Assembly (NCBI GenBank): GCA_021295155.1
Contig: JAJTJC010000036.1
Location: 682,001-746,000, forward strand
DNA: 64,000 bases
Direction of reading: 5' to 3'
Origin: Flavobacteriaceae bacterium D16
GTDB taxonomy: Bacteria; Bacteroidota; Bacteroidia; Flavobacteriales; Flavobacteriaceae
Below, one piece after another: positions 46,517-53,630 of this stretch (position 1 is its first letter; each line of letters starts with the position of its first letter). Under the pieces are notes generated by a model. The model saw only the letters and a program-made list of their open reading frames with translations, did not search any database and was not told the origin of the DNA. The position numbers and the translations under genes were made by a program.

Positions 46517-49231
46517 ATGAAAAGAATTTTATATATCGCGATATTCTTCGCGACCTGTAACTCCTTTGCCCAGGTTAAGCTTGAGGGCGTAGTACGAGAT
46601 AGTTTGAACCAACCCCTGGAGGCAGCTAATGTAATTGCAATAAATCAGGAAACCAGTGGTCTGGAATCCTTTGGTGTTACCACGCAGCAGGGACGCTATA
46701 GGCTGGATCTAGGTAAGAATGGCACCTACAAAATTCAGATCAGCTATGTCGGGATGAAGACCTTCACGGAGATCCTTTCAACAAAAGAAAGTAATATAAC
46801 CAAAGATTTCACCCTGGAGGCAGATAATGTGCTGGAAGGAGTAGAGCTGGTTTATGAAATGCCTGTTCAGGTTAAAGGCGATACCGTGGTTTATAATGCC
46901 GACTCTTTTAAGAACGGTACCGAGCGAAAGCTGGAAGATGTTTTGGAGAAGCTACCCGGAGTTGAGATCAATGAAGAAGGGCAGATTGAAGTAGAAGGCA
47001 AGGTGGTCAATAAGCTAATGGTTAACGGTAAGGATTTTTTTGACGGGGACACTAAATTGGCGTCAAAGAATATTCCCTCCAAGGCTGTAGATAAGATTCA
47101 GGTCTTACGCAATTATTCTGAAGTAGGTCAGTTGCGCAGTGTCACAAATAACCAGGACAATGTTGCCCTTAACATTAAACTCAAAGAAGGAAAAGAGAAT
47201 TTCTGGTTTGGAGATGTTACTGTTGGGGCAGGAAGTTCTCCGGATAAGGAGCTGTATCTGGTTCAACCCAAATTGTTTTATTATAGCCCTAAATACAGTC
47301 TTAATTTTATTGGAGATATCAACAATACTGGTGAAGTTGCCCTCACAAGACGTGATATCAGGAATTTTGGTGGAGGTTTCCGGGCACCCAGCAGAAGCAG
47401 TGGAACCAATATAAACCTTGGAGATAACAGCCTTAATTTTTTGACTAATCAGAACAATGCACTTGAAATAGAGAACAAATTAGCTACTGGTAATTTCAGC
47501 TACTCACCCAACCAGGCGCTCGACCTTAGTGGTTTTGTAATATACAATAGTAGTCGTATTGTTTCACGTGAAATAAGCTTCATTCGCTATACGGACCCTG
47601 AGTTAGGAATCCCAGATGAGCAAACGGAACAATCAAGCAATGAGCGATCTAATCAGGGTCTTGTTAAGCTTAGCGCCAAGTACCAGCCCAATTTCAGTAA
47701 TCAATTGGACTATGACCTTTTGGGCCGTGTCTCCAATGACAGGCAAAATCAGAACCTTTTTTCCTCCGTATTGGGCAATACCAGGCAGCTGGATGAGGTT
47801 ACACCATTCAGTTTTAATCAAAACCTGAACTACTATTATACCCTGGATGAAAATAATATTTTCGCATTGGAAGCCCAGCACCTTATAAAAAATGAAGACC
47901 CCTTTTACAATGCTGTCTTGGTCAATGACCCCTCTGGTGATAACGCTTTCGACTCCACTGCGGAGGCCCTGGGTTTAGATACCTTCCAGAGTAATTATGA
48001 CCTCGGCCAGAACCGACGTATCAAGTCCAATCAATTGGATGCCAAATTGGATTATTACCATATCATCAATACCAAAAGCAACCTTAACCTGACTTTAGGA
48101 ACTATTTTAAGTCGGCAGGAATTCAACTCCAACATTTTTCAGTTTCTGGACGATGGCTCGCAGTTCAATCCAACACCCATTATTAATGACGGAAAGGCAA
48201 CTAACGATACTGAGTACAACTTTAGCGATATCTACTTAGGAGTACATTATCGCGTAAAGCTGGGAAAATTTACGCTAACCCCCGGTTTTTCAGTACACGC
48301 TTATGGAAACAAGAACATACAGTTCGGAGAAACCTTTAAGGACAATTTCTTTCGGTTTTTACCGGATTTTGAAACCCGGATTCAATTGAAAAAAAGTGAA
48401 TCACTCACCCTCAGATATAACATGCTTAACCAGTTTACAGATGTAACAAGACTGGCAGAGGGAATAGTGCTAAACAATTTCAATAGTATTCAGTTCGGTG
48501 AGGCTGAACTGCAGAATGCCCTATCTAACAACATAAGTTTGTTATACAGCAGTTTCAACCTGTTCAACTATACCAATGTTTTCGCCAGGGCATCATATTC
48601 AAGCAATATCGACCAGATTCGGAGTCTGACCACATTTGAAAATGTAATCCGGACCAGTACGTTCTTTAATTCCAGTTTTGCAGATGAAAATGTCAATGTA
48701 TTTGGACGGGTTCAGCGTACATTTGGTAAGATAAGGGCCACTCTGAATGCCAGCTTCAATTACAGCAAAATTAATCAGTTCATTCAGGGGCAGCGATCCC
48801 TAAACGAGGGTTATACTCAGACTTATACCCCTGGGATTCGAACCAATTTCAAAGTAGCCCCAAACGTGAACTTTAGGTACCGCTATAGTGTAACCAACAA
48901 TAATCAGGGAGGAGGAAAAACCCGGTTCGTTACCAATGCACCTTCCGTTGAGTTTGATGCATATATTTGGAAATCAGTTACTTTACGAACAAATTATACG
49001 TACACCAATCAGGATTTGGACAATGGCAATTCACAGTCGTTCCAGAATTGGGACGCCACCCTCGCCTACAGAAAGAATAGGGATGCTAAATGGGAATATG
49101 AGATCAGAGCTACCAATATACTAGACATTGACTCTCAGGTACGAAACAGCGCAAATAATGTTTCTGTTTTTGCCTCAGAGACCTTTATACAGCCCAGGTT
49201 TGTGACTTTTAGGTTGGTGTACACCCTATAA
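46517..49231 (+). CDS. TonB-dependent receptor-like outer-membrane protein with carboxypeptidase-like domain
   Basis: A 904-residue outer-membrane protein. After the signal peptide comes a carboxypeptidase regulatory-like beta-sandwich (about 22-105, LEGVVRDSLNQPLEAANVIA and YKIQISYVGMKTF). Then a plug-like domain with GTERKLEDVLEKLPGVEI (about 134-151) follows, and a barrel of roughly 650 residues ends in a terminal TFRLVYTL strand. No clear TonB box is visible near the mature N-terminus. The pairing with GLPGLI suggests transport of a protein, peptide or metal chelate rather than glycan; that is inference. Confidence 0.85.
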   Translation: MKRILYIAIFFATCNSFAQVKLEGVVRDSLNQPLEAANVIAINQETSGLESFGVTTQQGRYRLDLGKNGTYKIQISYVGMKTFTEILSTKESNITKDFTLEADNVLEGVELVYEMPVQVKGDTVVYNADSFKNGTERKLEDVLEKLPGVEINEEGQIEVEGKVVNKLMVNGKDFFDGDTKLASKNIPSKAVDKIQVLRNYSEVGQLRSVTNNQDNVALNIKLKEGKENFWFGDVTVGAGSSPDKELYLVQPKLFYYSPKYSLNFIGDINNTGEVALTRRDIRNFGGGFRAPSRSSGTNINLGDNSLNFLTNQNNALEIENKLATGNFSYSPNQALDLSGFVIYNSSRIVSREISFIRYTDPELGIPDEQTEQSSNERSNQGLVKLSAKYQPNFSNQLDYDLLGRVSNDRQNQNLFSSVLGNTRQLDEVTPFSFNQNLNYYYTLDENNIFALEAQHLIKNEDPFYNAVLVNDPSGDNAFDSTAEALGLDTFQSNYDLGQNRRIKSNQLDAKLDYYHIINTKSNLNLTLGTILSRQEFNSNIFQFLDDGSQFNPTPIINDGKATNDTEYNFSDIYLGVHYRVKLGKFTLTPGFSVHAYGNKNIQFGETFKDNFFRFLPDFETRIQLKKSESLTLRYNMLNQFTDVTRLAEGIVLNNFNSIQFGEAELQNALSNNISLLYSSFNLFNYTNVFARASYSSNIDQIRSLTTFENVIRTSTFFNSSFADENVNVFGRVQRTFGKIRATLNASFNYSKINQFIQGQRSLNEGYTQTYTPGIRTNFKVAPNVNFRYRYSVTNNNQGGGKTRFVTNAPSVEFDAYIWKSVTLRTNYTYTNQDLDNGNSQSFQNWDATLAYRKNRDAKWEYEIRATNILDIDSQVRNSANNVSVFASETFIQPRFVTFRLVYTL

Positions 49232-49279: not shown

Positions 49280-49699
49280 CTATTCTCCATCAAATGGCAG
49301 CAGATCTGGTTTTAGATACTGCGCTTTTCCCTTTTCAGAAGAATAAATATCAAATCCATAATGGGCATTGATCAGTTCTCTGAAATTCATTTTCAAACGA
49401 GGGAATTCGGAGATAAAATCTTTGAAATTATCAGACTTGGACCGAGAAATAAAGTGATCGACAACTCTGATAGCAGCAACTGTTAAAGTAGTGTGATATT
49501 TCTCCTCGGCACCTAGGGAAGTTACATATTGTTTAAGCTGATCCTGTACCATTGATTCGGTTGTATTTAACCCGTATTTCCGGAGATATAGCCAGGACAA
49601 CCTCAAATGGGCTTCATGGGAAAAAATTAATGGGTCCATTGTACAGCTGATAAACTGCTCCTCAAACTCCTGGTCCGAAAGTTTATAATGTTCCTCCAT
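49280..49699 (-). CDS. Conserved hypothetical protein
   Basis: A 139-residue cytoplasmic helical protein with the segment FSHEAHLRLSWLYLRKYG (about 27-44) and later KYHTTLTVAAIRVVDHFI (about 67-84). The spaced histidines (H28, H31, H69, H82) might bind metal, as in four-helix enzymes. I recall similar short proteins in other bacteria without a function. It converges on the TonB-dependent receptor and sits downstream of the strong terminator at 49773, so it has its own transcript. Confidence 0.6.
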   Translation of the reverse strand: MEEHYKLSDQEFEEQFISCTMDPLIFSHEAHLRLSWLYLRKYGLNTTESMVQDQLKQYVTSLGAEEKYHTTLTVAAIRVVDHFISRSKSDNFKDFISEFPRLKMNFRELINAHYGFDIYSSEKGKAQYLKPDLLPFDGE

Positions 49700-49772: not shown

Positions 49773-49803
49773 CAAAAAGAACGCCCCGGGGTTCCCCGGG
49801 GCG
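49773..49803 (-). terminator. Intrinsic terminator after the ECF sigma/barrel operon
   Basis: CGCCCCGGGG and CCCCGGGGCG (49782-49803) form a 9-10-base GC stem with a minimal loop. On the minus strand it is followed by TTCTTTTTGC. It lies about 50 bases after the stop at 49850. Confidence 0.85.
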
Positions 49804-49849
49804 CACATAGGAGTTGCCACCGTAGCGGCCACTAACCTAACCAACTTCT

Positions 49850-51307
49850 TTAAAACCTGAAGCTCAATCCACTGTATACCCCAACTGAAAATGGCTGGAA
49901 GTTTCCTGCAGTATCGGAAAATGTATTTAGCTGGTATTTGAACATGGGCTCCAGATTCAATTGCATTTTTGGCGTGAGACGATAGTACATGCCCAAACCA
50001 AAATTGGTACTGAAATTAACCTCATTGATATTATTGGCCTCACCCATGGAAGTACTGGTATTGTCAGATACCAGGGTTACTGCATTCTCGGTCAGGAACA
50101 GGGAGCTTACCCCCCCGATCAGATTGACGCCCAGCTTCCTGTCCATGAGGTTATATTGCAACTCCACAGGTACTTCGAGATAGCCGAAATCCTGGACCAT
50201 ACGACCTTCCCGTGCAGGACTGGGAGCGTTGACCTCAAGAGCATCGGCTGCATTACTTTGTTGTGCTGCACGGCCCGTCTGGCTTTGTACTACCAGTGTT
50301 CGAGAGTTGGCATTGTAATCGATATTATCAATAAGGGAACTTGTAGATGCTGTCAGTGAAGAAGAAAATTCTACTTCATCGGTATCATAACCATAGTCTA
50401 CCCGGTGAACCCCGGATCGAACACTTAATTTTTTACTAACCTGATACGATACGGAAACCCCGTAGCTCAGGTTGACATTTCCCGATTTGCTGTTAGACAC
50501 GAAGTTGGAATGGATCGGAGAACCTTCAGCCAGTGTATTAAAATAGACCGGAGCTACCATAGGCCCCACTGACCAGCGGTTGGAATTGTTTTCTGCCACA
50601 ACTTCCTCCTCTTCCTGATCTTCCAGAGCATCAAATATGCTTTTCTTTGGTTTACCTTCTTGTGACAACTTTTGCTCTTCTTCAGAAACCTCGGCTACAG
50701 TTTCCACTTCAGGTTTTTTCCTGGGATCAGAAGTGGGATTCTCAATACTATTTTCAGGGGTATACTGATTTTCGGCCAGACCCCGACCTTTTACCTTGGT
50801 ATCCAATCCACTTTCATTAACCGTCCTATTGAGTAGTTCTTGTTTTTCACTGCCTTTTTTATCATTCTTATCCTTTTCGTTAGCCGCTAGTACCACGGCA
50901 CTCTCCTGATTCTGTATTGAATTTTCTGAAGAGCTCTCCTGTTGGTCGGCATCTTCACGCTTCCTGGAATTATTAGTGGAATTCTCTCCAGCCAGGGCAT
51001 CCTGCTTTTTAATATTTTCCTTAAGCTTATTATTATCTGGAGTTCCAGATTTCTCAATCGATTCAGGTTGTGCTGTATCAGTAATCGTTTCCGTACCTAT
51101 CTCTGATGTTTTAGGAAGGAAGAGATATAACAACAACGCAAGGGCGGCGGCTGCGCCTCCTAGTCTCCACCAAATCGGAATCACCCGTTTTTTGGATTTC
51201 TTTTCGTCCAGGGATGCAGCTATGGATTCCCAAACCCGTTCATCAGGGCTTTCCTGGTAATCCTTGAGCCTGTCCTTAAAGGCCTGGTCAATGTTAAACT
51301 TTTTCAT
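49850..51307 (-). CDS. Putative dual-membrane-spanning anti-sigma/outer-membrane barrel protein
   Basis: A 485-residue protein with a striking layout. Residues 1-45 are charged and cytoplasmic-like, including FKDRLKDYQESPDERVWESI. One hydrophobic helix follows (about 47-65, LGGAAAALALLLYLFLP). Residues about 66-245 are a disordered Glu/Lys/Asn/Ser-rich linker long enough to cross the periplasm. Residues about 248-485 are outer-membrane strands ending SGLSFRF with the terminal aromatic residue of barrels. The ATG overlaps the sigma factor stop by four bases. This fits the dual-membrane anti-sigma (Dma) idea described in Bacteroides: the barrel senses at the surface while the N-terminus holds the sigma factor. 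Sigma binding is inferred from coupling and topology. Confidence 0.75.
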   Translation of the reverse strand: MKKFNIDQAFKDRLKDYQESPDERVWESIAASLDEKKSKKRVIPIWWRLGGAAAALALLLYLFLPKTSEIGTETITDTAQPESIEKSGTPDNNKLKENIKKQDALAGENSTNNSRKREDADQQESSSENSIQNQESAVVLAANEKDKNDKKGSEKQELLNRTVNESGLDTKVKGRGLAENQYTPENSIENPTSDPRKKPEVETVAEVSEEEQKLSQEGKPKKSIFDALEDQEEEEVVAENNSNRWSVGPMVAPVYFNTLAEGSPIHSNFVSNSKSGNVNLSYGVSVSYQVSKKLSVRSGVHRVDYGYDTDEVEFSSSLTASTSSLIDNIDYNANSRTLVVQSQTGRAAQQSNAADALEVNAPSPAREGRMVQDFGYLEVPVELQYNLMDRKLGVNLIGGVSSLFLTENAVTLVSDNTSTSMGEANNINEVNFSTNFGLGMYYRLTPKMQLNLEPMFKYQLNTFSDTAGNFQPFSVGVYSGLSFRF

Positions 51308-51849
51308 GCTTTGCTGGTTTTAGCAATAGATATATTTTCGTTTTTGATCTTTTCTCTTAAAATCATTCGGGCTCTTGCCAGATTTGATTTTGATGTGCCG
51401 AGGGAGGTACCCAGGAGTTCACTGATCTCCTTGTGGGAATATCCATCGAGAACATACAAGTTAAATGTCAACCTGTATTTATTAGGGAGTTCCTGTATAA
51501 ATCCAAGTAAGGTTTGTAAACTTAATTCCTGAACAGGTTCTCCTGTTTCCTCTGTTTGGCTGTGCTGATTGGAAATAAGGCTTAGCGGTTCCTGTTTCCT
51601 GTATTTCTGAAGCACGGTATTAATGGTAATGCGCTTCATCCAACCTTCAAAGGAACCTTTGGACTTGTATTGTCCAATTTTATCATAGATCGTCATAAAG
51701 CTGTCATGTAAACTGTCTTCAGCTTCCGTACGGTTACGGGAATACTTGAGACACAGTCCAAATAGGGTGCTCGCGTACTTGCGGTACAGGTACTCCTGTG
51801 CCTTGCGATCTCCCTTTTTACAGGATGCTATGAGCGTATCCAGATTCAA
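51304..51849 (-). CDS. ECF-family RNA polymerase sigma factor
   Basis: A 181-residue sigma-70 family factor with regions 2 and 4 only. Region 2 (about 22-88) shows LYRKYASTLFGLCLKYSRNR and SFEGWMKRITINTVLQKYR. Region 4 (about 118-168) shows LPNKYRLTFNLYVLDGYSHK followed by ELLGTSLGTSKSNLARARMI, the helix-turn-helix that reads the -35 element. The next gene overlaps it by four bases and is probably its anti-sigma factor. A lipoprotein gene lies 36 bases upstream on the same strand. The regulon cannot be read from this window. Confidence 0.93.
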   Translation of the reverse strand: MNLDTLIASCKKGDRKAQEYLYRKYASTLFGLCLKYSRNRTEAEDSLHDSFMTIYDKIGQYKSKGSFEGWMKRITINTVLQKYRKQEPLSLISNQHSQTEETGEPVQELSLQTLLGFIQELPNKYRLTFNLYVLDGYSHKEISELLGTSLGTSKSNLARARMILREKIKNENISIAKTSKA

Positions 51850-51885
51850 ATTGTTGGTTAGAATTAGCGGATGAGCCCTTACGGC

Positions 51886-52305
51886 TTAATTAATGGGAAC
51901 GGTTATTTCTATATATTCCTGTTCTCCATTTTCGTCTTCCCCTGCCCAGAATCGGAACAAATAGGGTTGATCGTAAATTACCAAAAAGTTAAAGGACTCG
52001 GTAATTTCCTCTACTACCTGGGCACATTGCTGGTTATCCACCTCCGAGCCAATAGCTACAACGCTACGTACAGTAGTATCTTCCTGGCGAACATCAAACC
52101 CTTCAAAAAACACGCAGTTACTGGGTCTGATAAATGTTACACTTATTTCATAAGTTTCATTCAGGGTAAAAGTATCCGGCATATCCACACTGGTGATTTG
52201 CAGAGGGACAAAATGATACTTAATACTGTCGTCTTCAAGTTCGCAGCCCGTAAGGCCTAAGAGCAGGAATAATCCTATCCACACATATAATTGCTTCATA
52301 ATCAT
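51886..52305 (-). CDS. Hypothetical lipoprotein upstream of the ECF sigma gene
   Basis: A 139-residue lipoprotein: LLLGLTGCELEDD puts the modified cysteine at about C21, with acidic residues following, a pattern compatible with surface export of lipoproteins in Bacteroidota. The mature part is beta-rich (YHFVPLQITSVDMPDTFTLN) and holds two cysteines (C61 and about C92), possibly a disulfide. ATG at codon 3 is an alternative start. Its position 36 bases before the sigma gene suggests it belongs to the same regulatory operon, perhaps as ligand or partner of the barrel. Confidence 0.65.
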   Translation of the reverse strand: MIMKQLYVWIGLFLLLGLTGCELEDDSIKYHFVPLQITSVDMPDTFTLNETYEISVTFIRPSNCVFFEGFDVRQEDTTVRSVVAIGSEVDNQQCAQVVEEITESFNFLVIYDQPYLFRFWAGEDENGEQEYIEITVPIN

Positions 52306-52382
52306 CGCACATTTAATGTTTAGATGAATAGGGTGGAGAAAGGTTGCTTAATTGCCCACTATTAATAGCCGGAAACAGGATT

Positions 52383-53390: not shown

Positions 53391-53524
53391 GGGGTATCCT
53401 TTTTTTGAGAATGAAGGGCTAAAATTACCATTTCTTTTTGCATAACACAATCACCCAAGCAACCTTTTTCCCAATTTGGCATCTCCTTTGTAAACAGCTA
53501 CTCATACTATTATATATCCGGGCA

Positions 53525-53630
53525 CATAAAACCCCGGGCAACGTTGACCATGTATCCCGTTTGGATTCTATGAAAAAGAAAATAAAACAGGCATGGTCTT
53601 TAAAGAGCCTTGATTTTCAGGGCTCTTTTA
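53525..53630 (+). ncRNA. Candidate small RNA upstream of trhO
   Basis: A plus-strand terminator-like hairpin (53602-53628) lies where no upstream plus-strand gene exists for several kilobases, and trhO has its own promoter just after it. The simplest reading is a short independent transcript of about 100 bases. A possible weak promoter (TTTG near 53508, about 20 bases, TATATATC) would start it near 53525. A second small hairpin (CCGGG...CCCGG) lies near its 5' end. A 34-codon frame beginning at 53571 runs through the terminator and is a less likely product. Confidence 0.3.
53602..53630 (+). terminator. Orphan terminator-like hairpin
   Basis: AAAGAGCC and GGCTCTTT pair over 8 bases, extended inward by TTG/CAG to about 11 pairs, ending in TTTT. 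This form of stem, with A's at the base opposite the T run, is common for Bacteroidota terminators. Confidence 0.55.

Follow-up and report, generated by a model that had tools for sequence, protein, structure and literature searches.

A Dma-type anti-sigma protein predicted to span both membranes, with a candidate promoter motif and a covarying RNA beside recA in Flavobacteriaceae

Introduction

The described systems closest to the locus reported here are Dma1/Das1 and Dma2/Das2 of Bacteroides thetaiotaomicron. In the accessible part of that work, the Dma plan comprises an anti-sigma binding domain, a helix, a long disordered tether and a C-terminal beta-barrel; the gene for an ECF sigma factor lies adjacent, dma2 too sits in a three-gene operon, and deletion of dma2 raises expression of its own operon (PMC13088901). 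The pair M0N98_03761/03760 of Phocaeicola vulgatus is similarly laid out, with an ECF sigma factor followed by a long anti-sigma factor that carries a helix and an outer-membrane barrel. The available sections of its description liken it to EcfO of B. fragilis, name envelope stress as the likely signal, and report that the pair responds to a membrane-attacking toxin and that toxin stress leads to release of a protein with this layout; an operon lipoprotein, a promoter motif and an RNA are not mentioned in these sections (PMC9308784). Within the accessible parts of the literature examined, Dma-type proteins have so far been studied only in Bacteroides and Phocaeicola.

The SM6 promoters of Flavobacterium psychrophilum, a member of the same family as the genome considered here, are also of ECF type, and YceA (trhO) and the putative RNA Rfp11 are listed among their targets. 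They differ from the motif described below in having a CGT box at -10 where the latter has CATCT, and the selection of SM6 targets given in the available part of the source includes genes for type IX secretion, and none of its entries is described as a lipoprotein (PMC9723704).

Here we describe a locus from Flavobacteriaceae bacterium D16, located in a 64,000-nucleotide stretch of DNA (the window). An initial annotation had likened its anti-sigma protein to the Bacteroides Dma proteins, and the published description, in its accessible part, does fit part by part: a likeness of description that extends over the N-terminal part, the one helix, the disordered tether and the barrel, as well as the adjacent ECF sigma gene (PMC13088901). 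The architecture is thus one already known as Dma, here found in a Flavobacteriaceae genome. Unlike Dma1/Das1 and Dma2/Das2, as far as these are described there, the third gene of the present operon encodes a lipoprotein, placed first, beside recA, and the system has a shared motif, lipoprotein-rich targets and an RNA. What is new is the gene order and the constancy of tether length, the promoter motif, the lipoprotein-rich targets, and a covarying RNA without an Rfam match.

Results

A three-gene operon downstream of recA

Downstream of recA, three minus-strand genes encode a lipoprotein, an ECF sigma factor with the Pfam domains Sigma70_r2 and Sigma70_r4_2, and a protein of 485 residues (Table 1). 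All three reading frames were found as initially annotated, and the tight coupling claimed for them was borne out: the sigma stop and the start of the 485-residue protein share 4 nt (ATGA), and the operon is followed by its own terminator-like stem-loop, in a region that has 7 terminator-like sites compared to a mean of 3.9 in shuffles.

Table 1. Features of the locus, in positions of the window.
Feature	Position	Strand	Basis
Operon lipoprotein, 139 aa	51886..52305	-	ORF; predicted lipid-carrying Cys at residue 21; compact beta fold
ECF sigma factor, 181 aa, TTG start	51304..51849	-	ORF and Pfam
Dma-type anti-sigma protein, 485 aa	49850..51307	-	ORF, Pfam, conserved residues, AlphaFold2, structure comparison
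Residues 1-45, cytoplasmic part, presumed sigma-binding	51173..51307	-	Conserved residues; binding inferred
Residues 46-63, predicted inner-membrane helix	51119..51172	-	AlphaFold2
Residues 64-222, predicted disordered tether, E/K/S/N-rich, sequence not conserved	50642..51118	-	AlphaFold2 and alignments
Residues 224-238, conserved short helix N-terminal to barrel	50594..50638	-	AlphaFold2 and alignment
Residues 243-485, predicted 8-stranded outer-membrane barrel, last residue F	49853..50581	-	Pfam, AlphaFold2, structure comparison
Candidate operon promoter GCAACC-N15-CATCT	52322..52347	-	Motif searches
Terminator-like stem-loop 3' of operon	49781..49804	-	10 pairs, 9 G-C
Second candidate promoter, same type, directed away from recA	53459..53484	+	Motif searches
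Candidate structured RNA, ~140 nt: hairpin, long stem, terminator	53491..53629	+	Covariation; start inferred from promoter

The 485-residue protein is predicted to pass through both membranes

Pfam OMP_b-brl_2 (PF13568) covers residues 243-456 of the 485-residue protein (30.8 bits, cut-off 27). AlphaFold2, with an alignment of 37 sequences, modelled a single helix (residues 46-63), a span with pLDDT below 50 (residues 65-220), a short helix (residues 224-238) and long strands (residues 245-484) with pLDDT mostly 85-95. Comparison of the barrel with solved structures gave Z scores of 18.0 (9nh2), 17.6 (NspA), 17.3, 17.0, 16.7 (OmpW) and 16.0 (OmpA, 1qjp), which agrees with the barrel originally proposed for the C-terminus, while a sequence search of the PDB with the same protein returned one weak hit only (E 0.51), probably by chance. 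The protein is accordingly predicted to be one chain through both membranes with an OmpA/OmpW-like 8-stranded barrel at its C-terminus. The one helix, disordered linker and terminal barrel of the initial annotation hold in the AlphaFold2 model, but the linker measures about 158 residues (~65-222) and not about 180, a length that is approached only when the helix at 224-238 and its flanks are counted in.

The N-terminus had been called cytoplasmic, and residues 1-45 do precede the single helix, but this part is modelled at low confidence (pLDDT 50-66). Across 24 sequences, D7, P21, W26 and I29 are invariant within it, as are W46, G51, A53 and A54 in the membrane helix, and we presume the N-terminus to be the sigma-binding part. 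Between helix and barrel lie 166-211 residues in 24 homologues and 171-243 in 37 homologues, and the sequence of this span is barely conserved except for a KKSIF-like segment and the helix right before the barrel. That length is kept and sequence is not is the pattern expected of a tether. The sole well-kept part of the periplasmic region (KKSIFDxIxEQEE, 50594-50647) lies directly N-terminal to the barrel.

The pair is widespread in Flavobacteriaceae and its gene order is kept

Matches to the anti-sigma protein were found in 126 of 149 Flavobacteriaceae genomes, a count that includes weak matches such as that in G127 (3.6e-6), and matches to the operon lipoprotein in 103 of 149. The latter are confined to genomes with an anti-sigma match (103/126 vs 0/23; Fisher 1.3e-14). 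Most but not all of the 23 genomes without an anti-sigma match are small; G033, for instance, has 4.8 Mb. Among the matches listed, Lentiprolixibacter aurantiacus M415 (L216) is the nearest relative with a name.

The order recA-lipoprotein-sigma-dma is kept in 75 of 80 named loci. The 80 regions fetched represent 78 genomes, and shares within this set are not frequencies because 22 loci without the lipoprotein were deliberately included. In 19 of these 22, recA was found, and the sigma gene follows it at 104-328 bp. Thirteen further loci, L002 and L352-L363, five of which represent three other families, each gave a sigma match as well; L353 among them holds only the barrel end and a sigma fragment.

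A promoter-like motif precedes the operon and distant lipoprotein genes

The exact dyad GCAAC-17-ATCT occurs upstream of the operon in 68 of 80 sequences, compared to 4 for the best dyad in one shuffle. The motif lies upstream of the lipoprotein in 73 of 77 named loci, and with a looser pattern and longer upstream regions the operon motif was found in 75 of 77, L080 and L135 being without it. It is also retained upstream of the operon where the sigma gene itself comes first. We infer that GCAACC-N15-CATCT is the autoregulatory promoter of the operon's sigma factor, a reading that draws on sequence comparison.

A genome-wide search for the strict form CGCAACC-N15-CATCTA gave 250 occurrences, spread over 93 of the 149 genomes and inclusive of the 13 identical copies in G125; its reversed control gave 4. 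The strict form was found in none of the 23 Flavobacteriaceae genomes without an anti-sigma match, and it is missing from 33 of the 126 with one, including the window's own. There, 12 sites match the looser GCAACY-N15-YATCT, and 1 matches its reversed control. Apparent targets among the 12 are the operon, the recA-divergent site and the lipoprotein-like genes L142 and L150; of the others, six fall within ORFs and two lack an obvious target. Beyond the family, a CAACC-N16/17-GCATCT version precedes the sigma gene in 3 of 4 loci examined; the motif with such a spacer precedes it in none of three Flavobacterium-like loci that encode distant Dma-type proteins. Strict matches outside Flavobacteriaceae (10 of 266 genomes) were discarded as background, since the reversed control gave 12 matches there. 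The 13 listed sites in G125 (L182 and further copies) have an identical spacer and are possibly borne by a repeated element.

To characterize what lies behind the motif, 60 distant sites were chosen among those listed by position and not by content; the operon and recA-side sites, about 20 other listed sites and 12 of the 13 identical G125 copies were omitted. By a fixed rule, 35 of the 60 precede a lipoprotein start, mostly 14-50 nt downstream, compared to 182 of 20,000 positions drawn at random from the fetched loci; 70 of 648 flank ORFs there are lipoprotein-like, the operon lipoprotein itself included. Three more sites (L156, L180, L200) precede lipoproteins by eye beyond the rule. Seven of the 60 precede a 28-aa single-helix membrane peptide (L161: MKILLIFSILIVINIILLVFSVNKKTDP), whose differences at codon positions 1, 2 and 3 number 145, 38 and 282; its conserved loci are L157, L161, L176, L183, L186, L194 and L213. 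The other 18 fit neither class by rule. By eye, further distant targets comprise small barrels (L169, L211, L215) and SusC-like receptors (L172, L205, L209) at 109-146 nt downstream, and the remaining sites include some that look accidental. Eight regulon proteins and two micro-proteins compared with Pfam, and six of these or their like compared with NCBIfam, gave no match above cut-off.

A covarying RNA, or a peptide gene, beside recA

A second site, directed away from recA, is present in 48 of 75 loci and in 51 of 74 named loci. The sequence downstream of it forms two stems and a terminator in the window and in 31 of the 51 named loci. The common structure has 26 pairs, with 92.8% of cells paired and changes on both sides in 20 of the 26. 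Double changes were counted in 78 cells, compared to 23.2 in shuffles, none of 500 shuffles reached this number, and the signal drops once pairing partners are slid. The structure was derived from the alignment, and the alignment itself was not fitted to the structure. From the alignment, L231, L233 and L248 (short forms), L275 (cut short) and L288 (a near copy of L279) were dropped, and it was made without L237, L242, L249, L257, L258, L264, L267, L271, L274, L278, L281, L286, L290, L293 and L295. The window and nine loci, searched against 4227 Rfam families, gave no match at or above the gathering threshold.

Strong copies of the RNA model (E <1e-9) are found in 16 of 149 genomes, and by their coordinates all 16 fall within dma loci or the window. 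With E allowed up to 0.01 the model matches 88 of 149 genomes, but the weak matches that rank after the 16 strong copies score only about 30-45 bits, often lie on both strands, and occur also in genomes without an anti-sigma match (G016, G020, G128, G131, G137, G139); for these reasons only the 16 strong copies were counted. A coding gene in place of the RNA was rejected for the window's clade: the frame after ATGAAAAAG (ATGAAA) is not the same from one sequence to the next, and stops often interrupt it.

Where the window's clade has the RNA, sister clades have a 30-aa peptide preceded by the second site and ending in DGG, once EGG (15 cases: L063, L068, L071, L112, L114-L118, L120, L129, L130, L133, L136 and L137). 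Its differences at codon positions 1, 2 and 3 number 1010, 840 and 1559. On the RNA strand, 69 of 80 named loci have trhO as the next gene. The interval from the RNA terminator to trhO contains a main-sigma -7 box (TAnnTTTG) in 26 of 29 loci, compared to 2.9 expected; in the window itself the copy of this box is inexact.

The operon lipoprotein

The operon lipoprotein was modelled by AlphaFold2 with 35 sequences as a compact beta fold with pLDDT 89. In the 137-aa form, whose numbering is used here, C62 and C92 are invariant alongside the lipobox cysteine C19. Among PDB entries, this fold ranks four Bacteroidales proteins highest (3k0y, Z 6.5; 3qwn, 6.0; 5bmt, 6.0; 3nqi, 5.9), only 3qwn is named NigD-like, and unrelated rows tie at 5.5 and below. 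When 35 members were compared with Pfam up to E 5, no NigD model was among the 19 families listed, and a profile search of PDB sequences gave no NigD match. Membership of the NigD family was thus set aside as a suggestive fold ranking with no sequence support, and we treat the likeness as a lead, not a finding. In Bacteroides, NigD1 is required for the vesicle phenotype of a dma1 deletion, according to the accessible part of PMC13088901.

In G017 and G145 the lipoprotein is encoded elsewhere in the genome with no motif in the fetched stretch, and the sigma gene retains the motif. At L138 and L140, the relocated lipoprotein follows, by eye, TGCGACAT...ATGTCG-like repeats in place of the motif.

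Discussion

We regard it as likely that this locus is the Flavobacteriaceae version of the Dma/Das envelope switch. The architecture, gene order, promoter-like motif, genes behind it and RNA structure are supported by sequence and prediction, to which the following proposal adds binding of the sigma factor, its recognition of the motif, a trigger, a mode of release and production of the RNA. The cytoplasmic N-terminus of the Dma-type protein would hold the ECF sigma factor at the inner membrane, while the barrel, linked to this N-terminus by a disordered tether of conserved length, would be placed in the outer membrane. Outer-membrane stress or a surface ligand would disturb the barrel and so free the sigma factor, which would then read GCAACC-N15-CATCT promoters, that of its own operon included; its further targets would be a set of lipoproteins, the majority of them small, along with a few membrane peptides, a few barrels and the RNA beside recA. 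In favor of this switch are the architecture, the tether, kept in length without sequence, the gene order, the motif counts, the lipoprotein targets, the RNA covariation and the sigma match in all 13 further loci, as well as the rise of the operon on dma2 deletion in Bacteroides (PMC13088901) and the release seen under toxin stress in P. vulgatus (PMC9308784). Against it stand the anti-sigma genomes that are missing the strict motif, the window's own among them, the motif-less Flavobacterium-like loci, the unclassed distant sites and the poor model of the sigma-binding part.

How the sigma factor would be released admits another answer. One-helix anti-sigma factors are usually released by regulated proteolysis, and it is possible, if rather doubtful, that the chain is cut on signalling, with envelope proteases cleaving the tether or the membrane helix and the barrel acting merely as sensor. 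A long tether that AlphaFold2 models as disordered would be accessible to proteases, but the conservation of its length argues against such cleavage, and no cleavage site came to light. The initial annotation had also suggested the operon lipoprotein as a sensor or ligand, and in E. coli the sentinels RcsF and NlpE act in such a manner; here the lipoprotein would cap or plug the barrel, and its loss or mislocalisation would free the sigma factor. Its place as first operon gene in 75 of 80 named loci and its confinement to genomes with an anti-sigma match agree with this. As an obligatory role, however, the suggestion is weakened by the 23 of 126 anti-sigma genomes without a lipoprotein match, by the loci in which the distance from recA to sigma leaves no room for a lipoprotein gene, by the two genomes that encode it elsewhere without the motif, and by its being just one among many lipoproteins behind the same promoter, and we consider it unlikely. 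Since some genomes do without the lipoprotein and two have uncoupled it, comparison of these genomes makes it more likely an output or feedback than an obligatory sensor.

Two further alternatives concern the motif and the RNA. Flavobacteria carry several ECF sigma factors (7 in F. psychrophilum, in the accessible part of PMC9723704), and the window's own genome has a second ECF/anti-sigma locus, so that another of these could read the motif, with the operon just one target; we hold this to be very improbable, given that the motif stays upstream of the operon when sigma is the first gene, that its strict form is absent from all 23 genomes without an anti-sigma match, and that it is not found upstream of the second locus's sigma gene. 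It is likewise improbable that the recA-divergent RNA belongs to trhO as a 5' leader, acting as an attenuator, rather than being a separate small RNA: trhO is commonly the next gene on that strand, but the RNA ends in a terminator, and the main-sigma -7 box separates it from trhO in nearly all loci compared.

The sigma-E factor of E. coli is an envelope-stress ECF sigma that drives the small RNAs MicA, RybB and MicL, and its anti-sigma factor RseA spans the inner membrane only and is cut by DegS and RseP. The present system is like sigma-E in that an envelope-stress ECF sigma would also drive a small RNA, here a candidate, and unlike RseA in that a single chain is predicted to extend to the outer membrane. 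Tentatively, and as a view with something to be said for it, the Flavobacteriaceae pair may be the counterpart of the sigma-E response, one cytoplasm-to-outer-membrane chain reporting the state of the outer membrane and the response consisting of a lipoprotein regulon, micro-proteins and, across recA, a small RNA dependent on the sigma factor or, in sister clades, a 30-aa peptide gene; together these would amount to a previously undescribed circuit for outer-membrane lipoprotein homeostasis. If this is true, a one-chain trans-envelope sensor is joined to RNA-level control, a pairing not reported in this phylum in the literature searched, the coverage of which was incomplete. In the same literature, covered mostly without subscription journals, there was no report of the motif, the lipoprotein-rich target set, the RNA or the two micro-proteins. 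The motif and target list make the role of Dma testable in many other Bacteroidota: the motif can serve as a reporter, the target list points at outer-membrane lipoproteins, and the RNA and micro-proteins are new candidate genes.

Several other features of this genome are worth recording. At the second ECF/anti-sigma locus (L002, G000:C11:1306561-1309770), the sigma gene is followed by a 254-codon frame that shares the N-terminal segment and has one likely helix, and then by a separate protein resembling, by eye, a barrel of the outer membrane, which gives the impression of a Dma plan divided between two genes; a GGCAACT...CGTCTA variant can be seen by eye upstream of its sigma gene. In the window, a 139-aa ORF past the operon terminator (49280-49699) matches nothing in Pfam or NCBIfam and, among the 80 fetched loci, is found only in L084, from the same genus. 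Convergent with the operon, a 904-aa protein (46517-49231) has a CarboxypepD_reg domain and a weak TonB-plug match.
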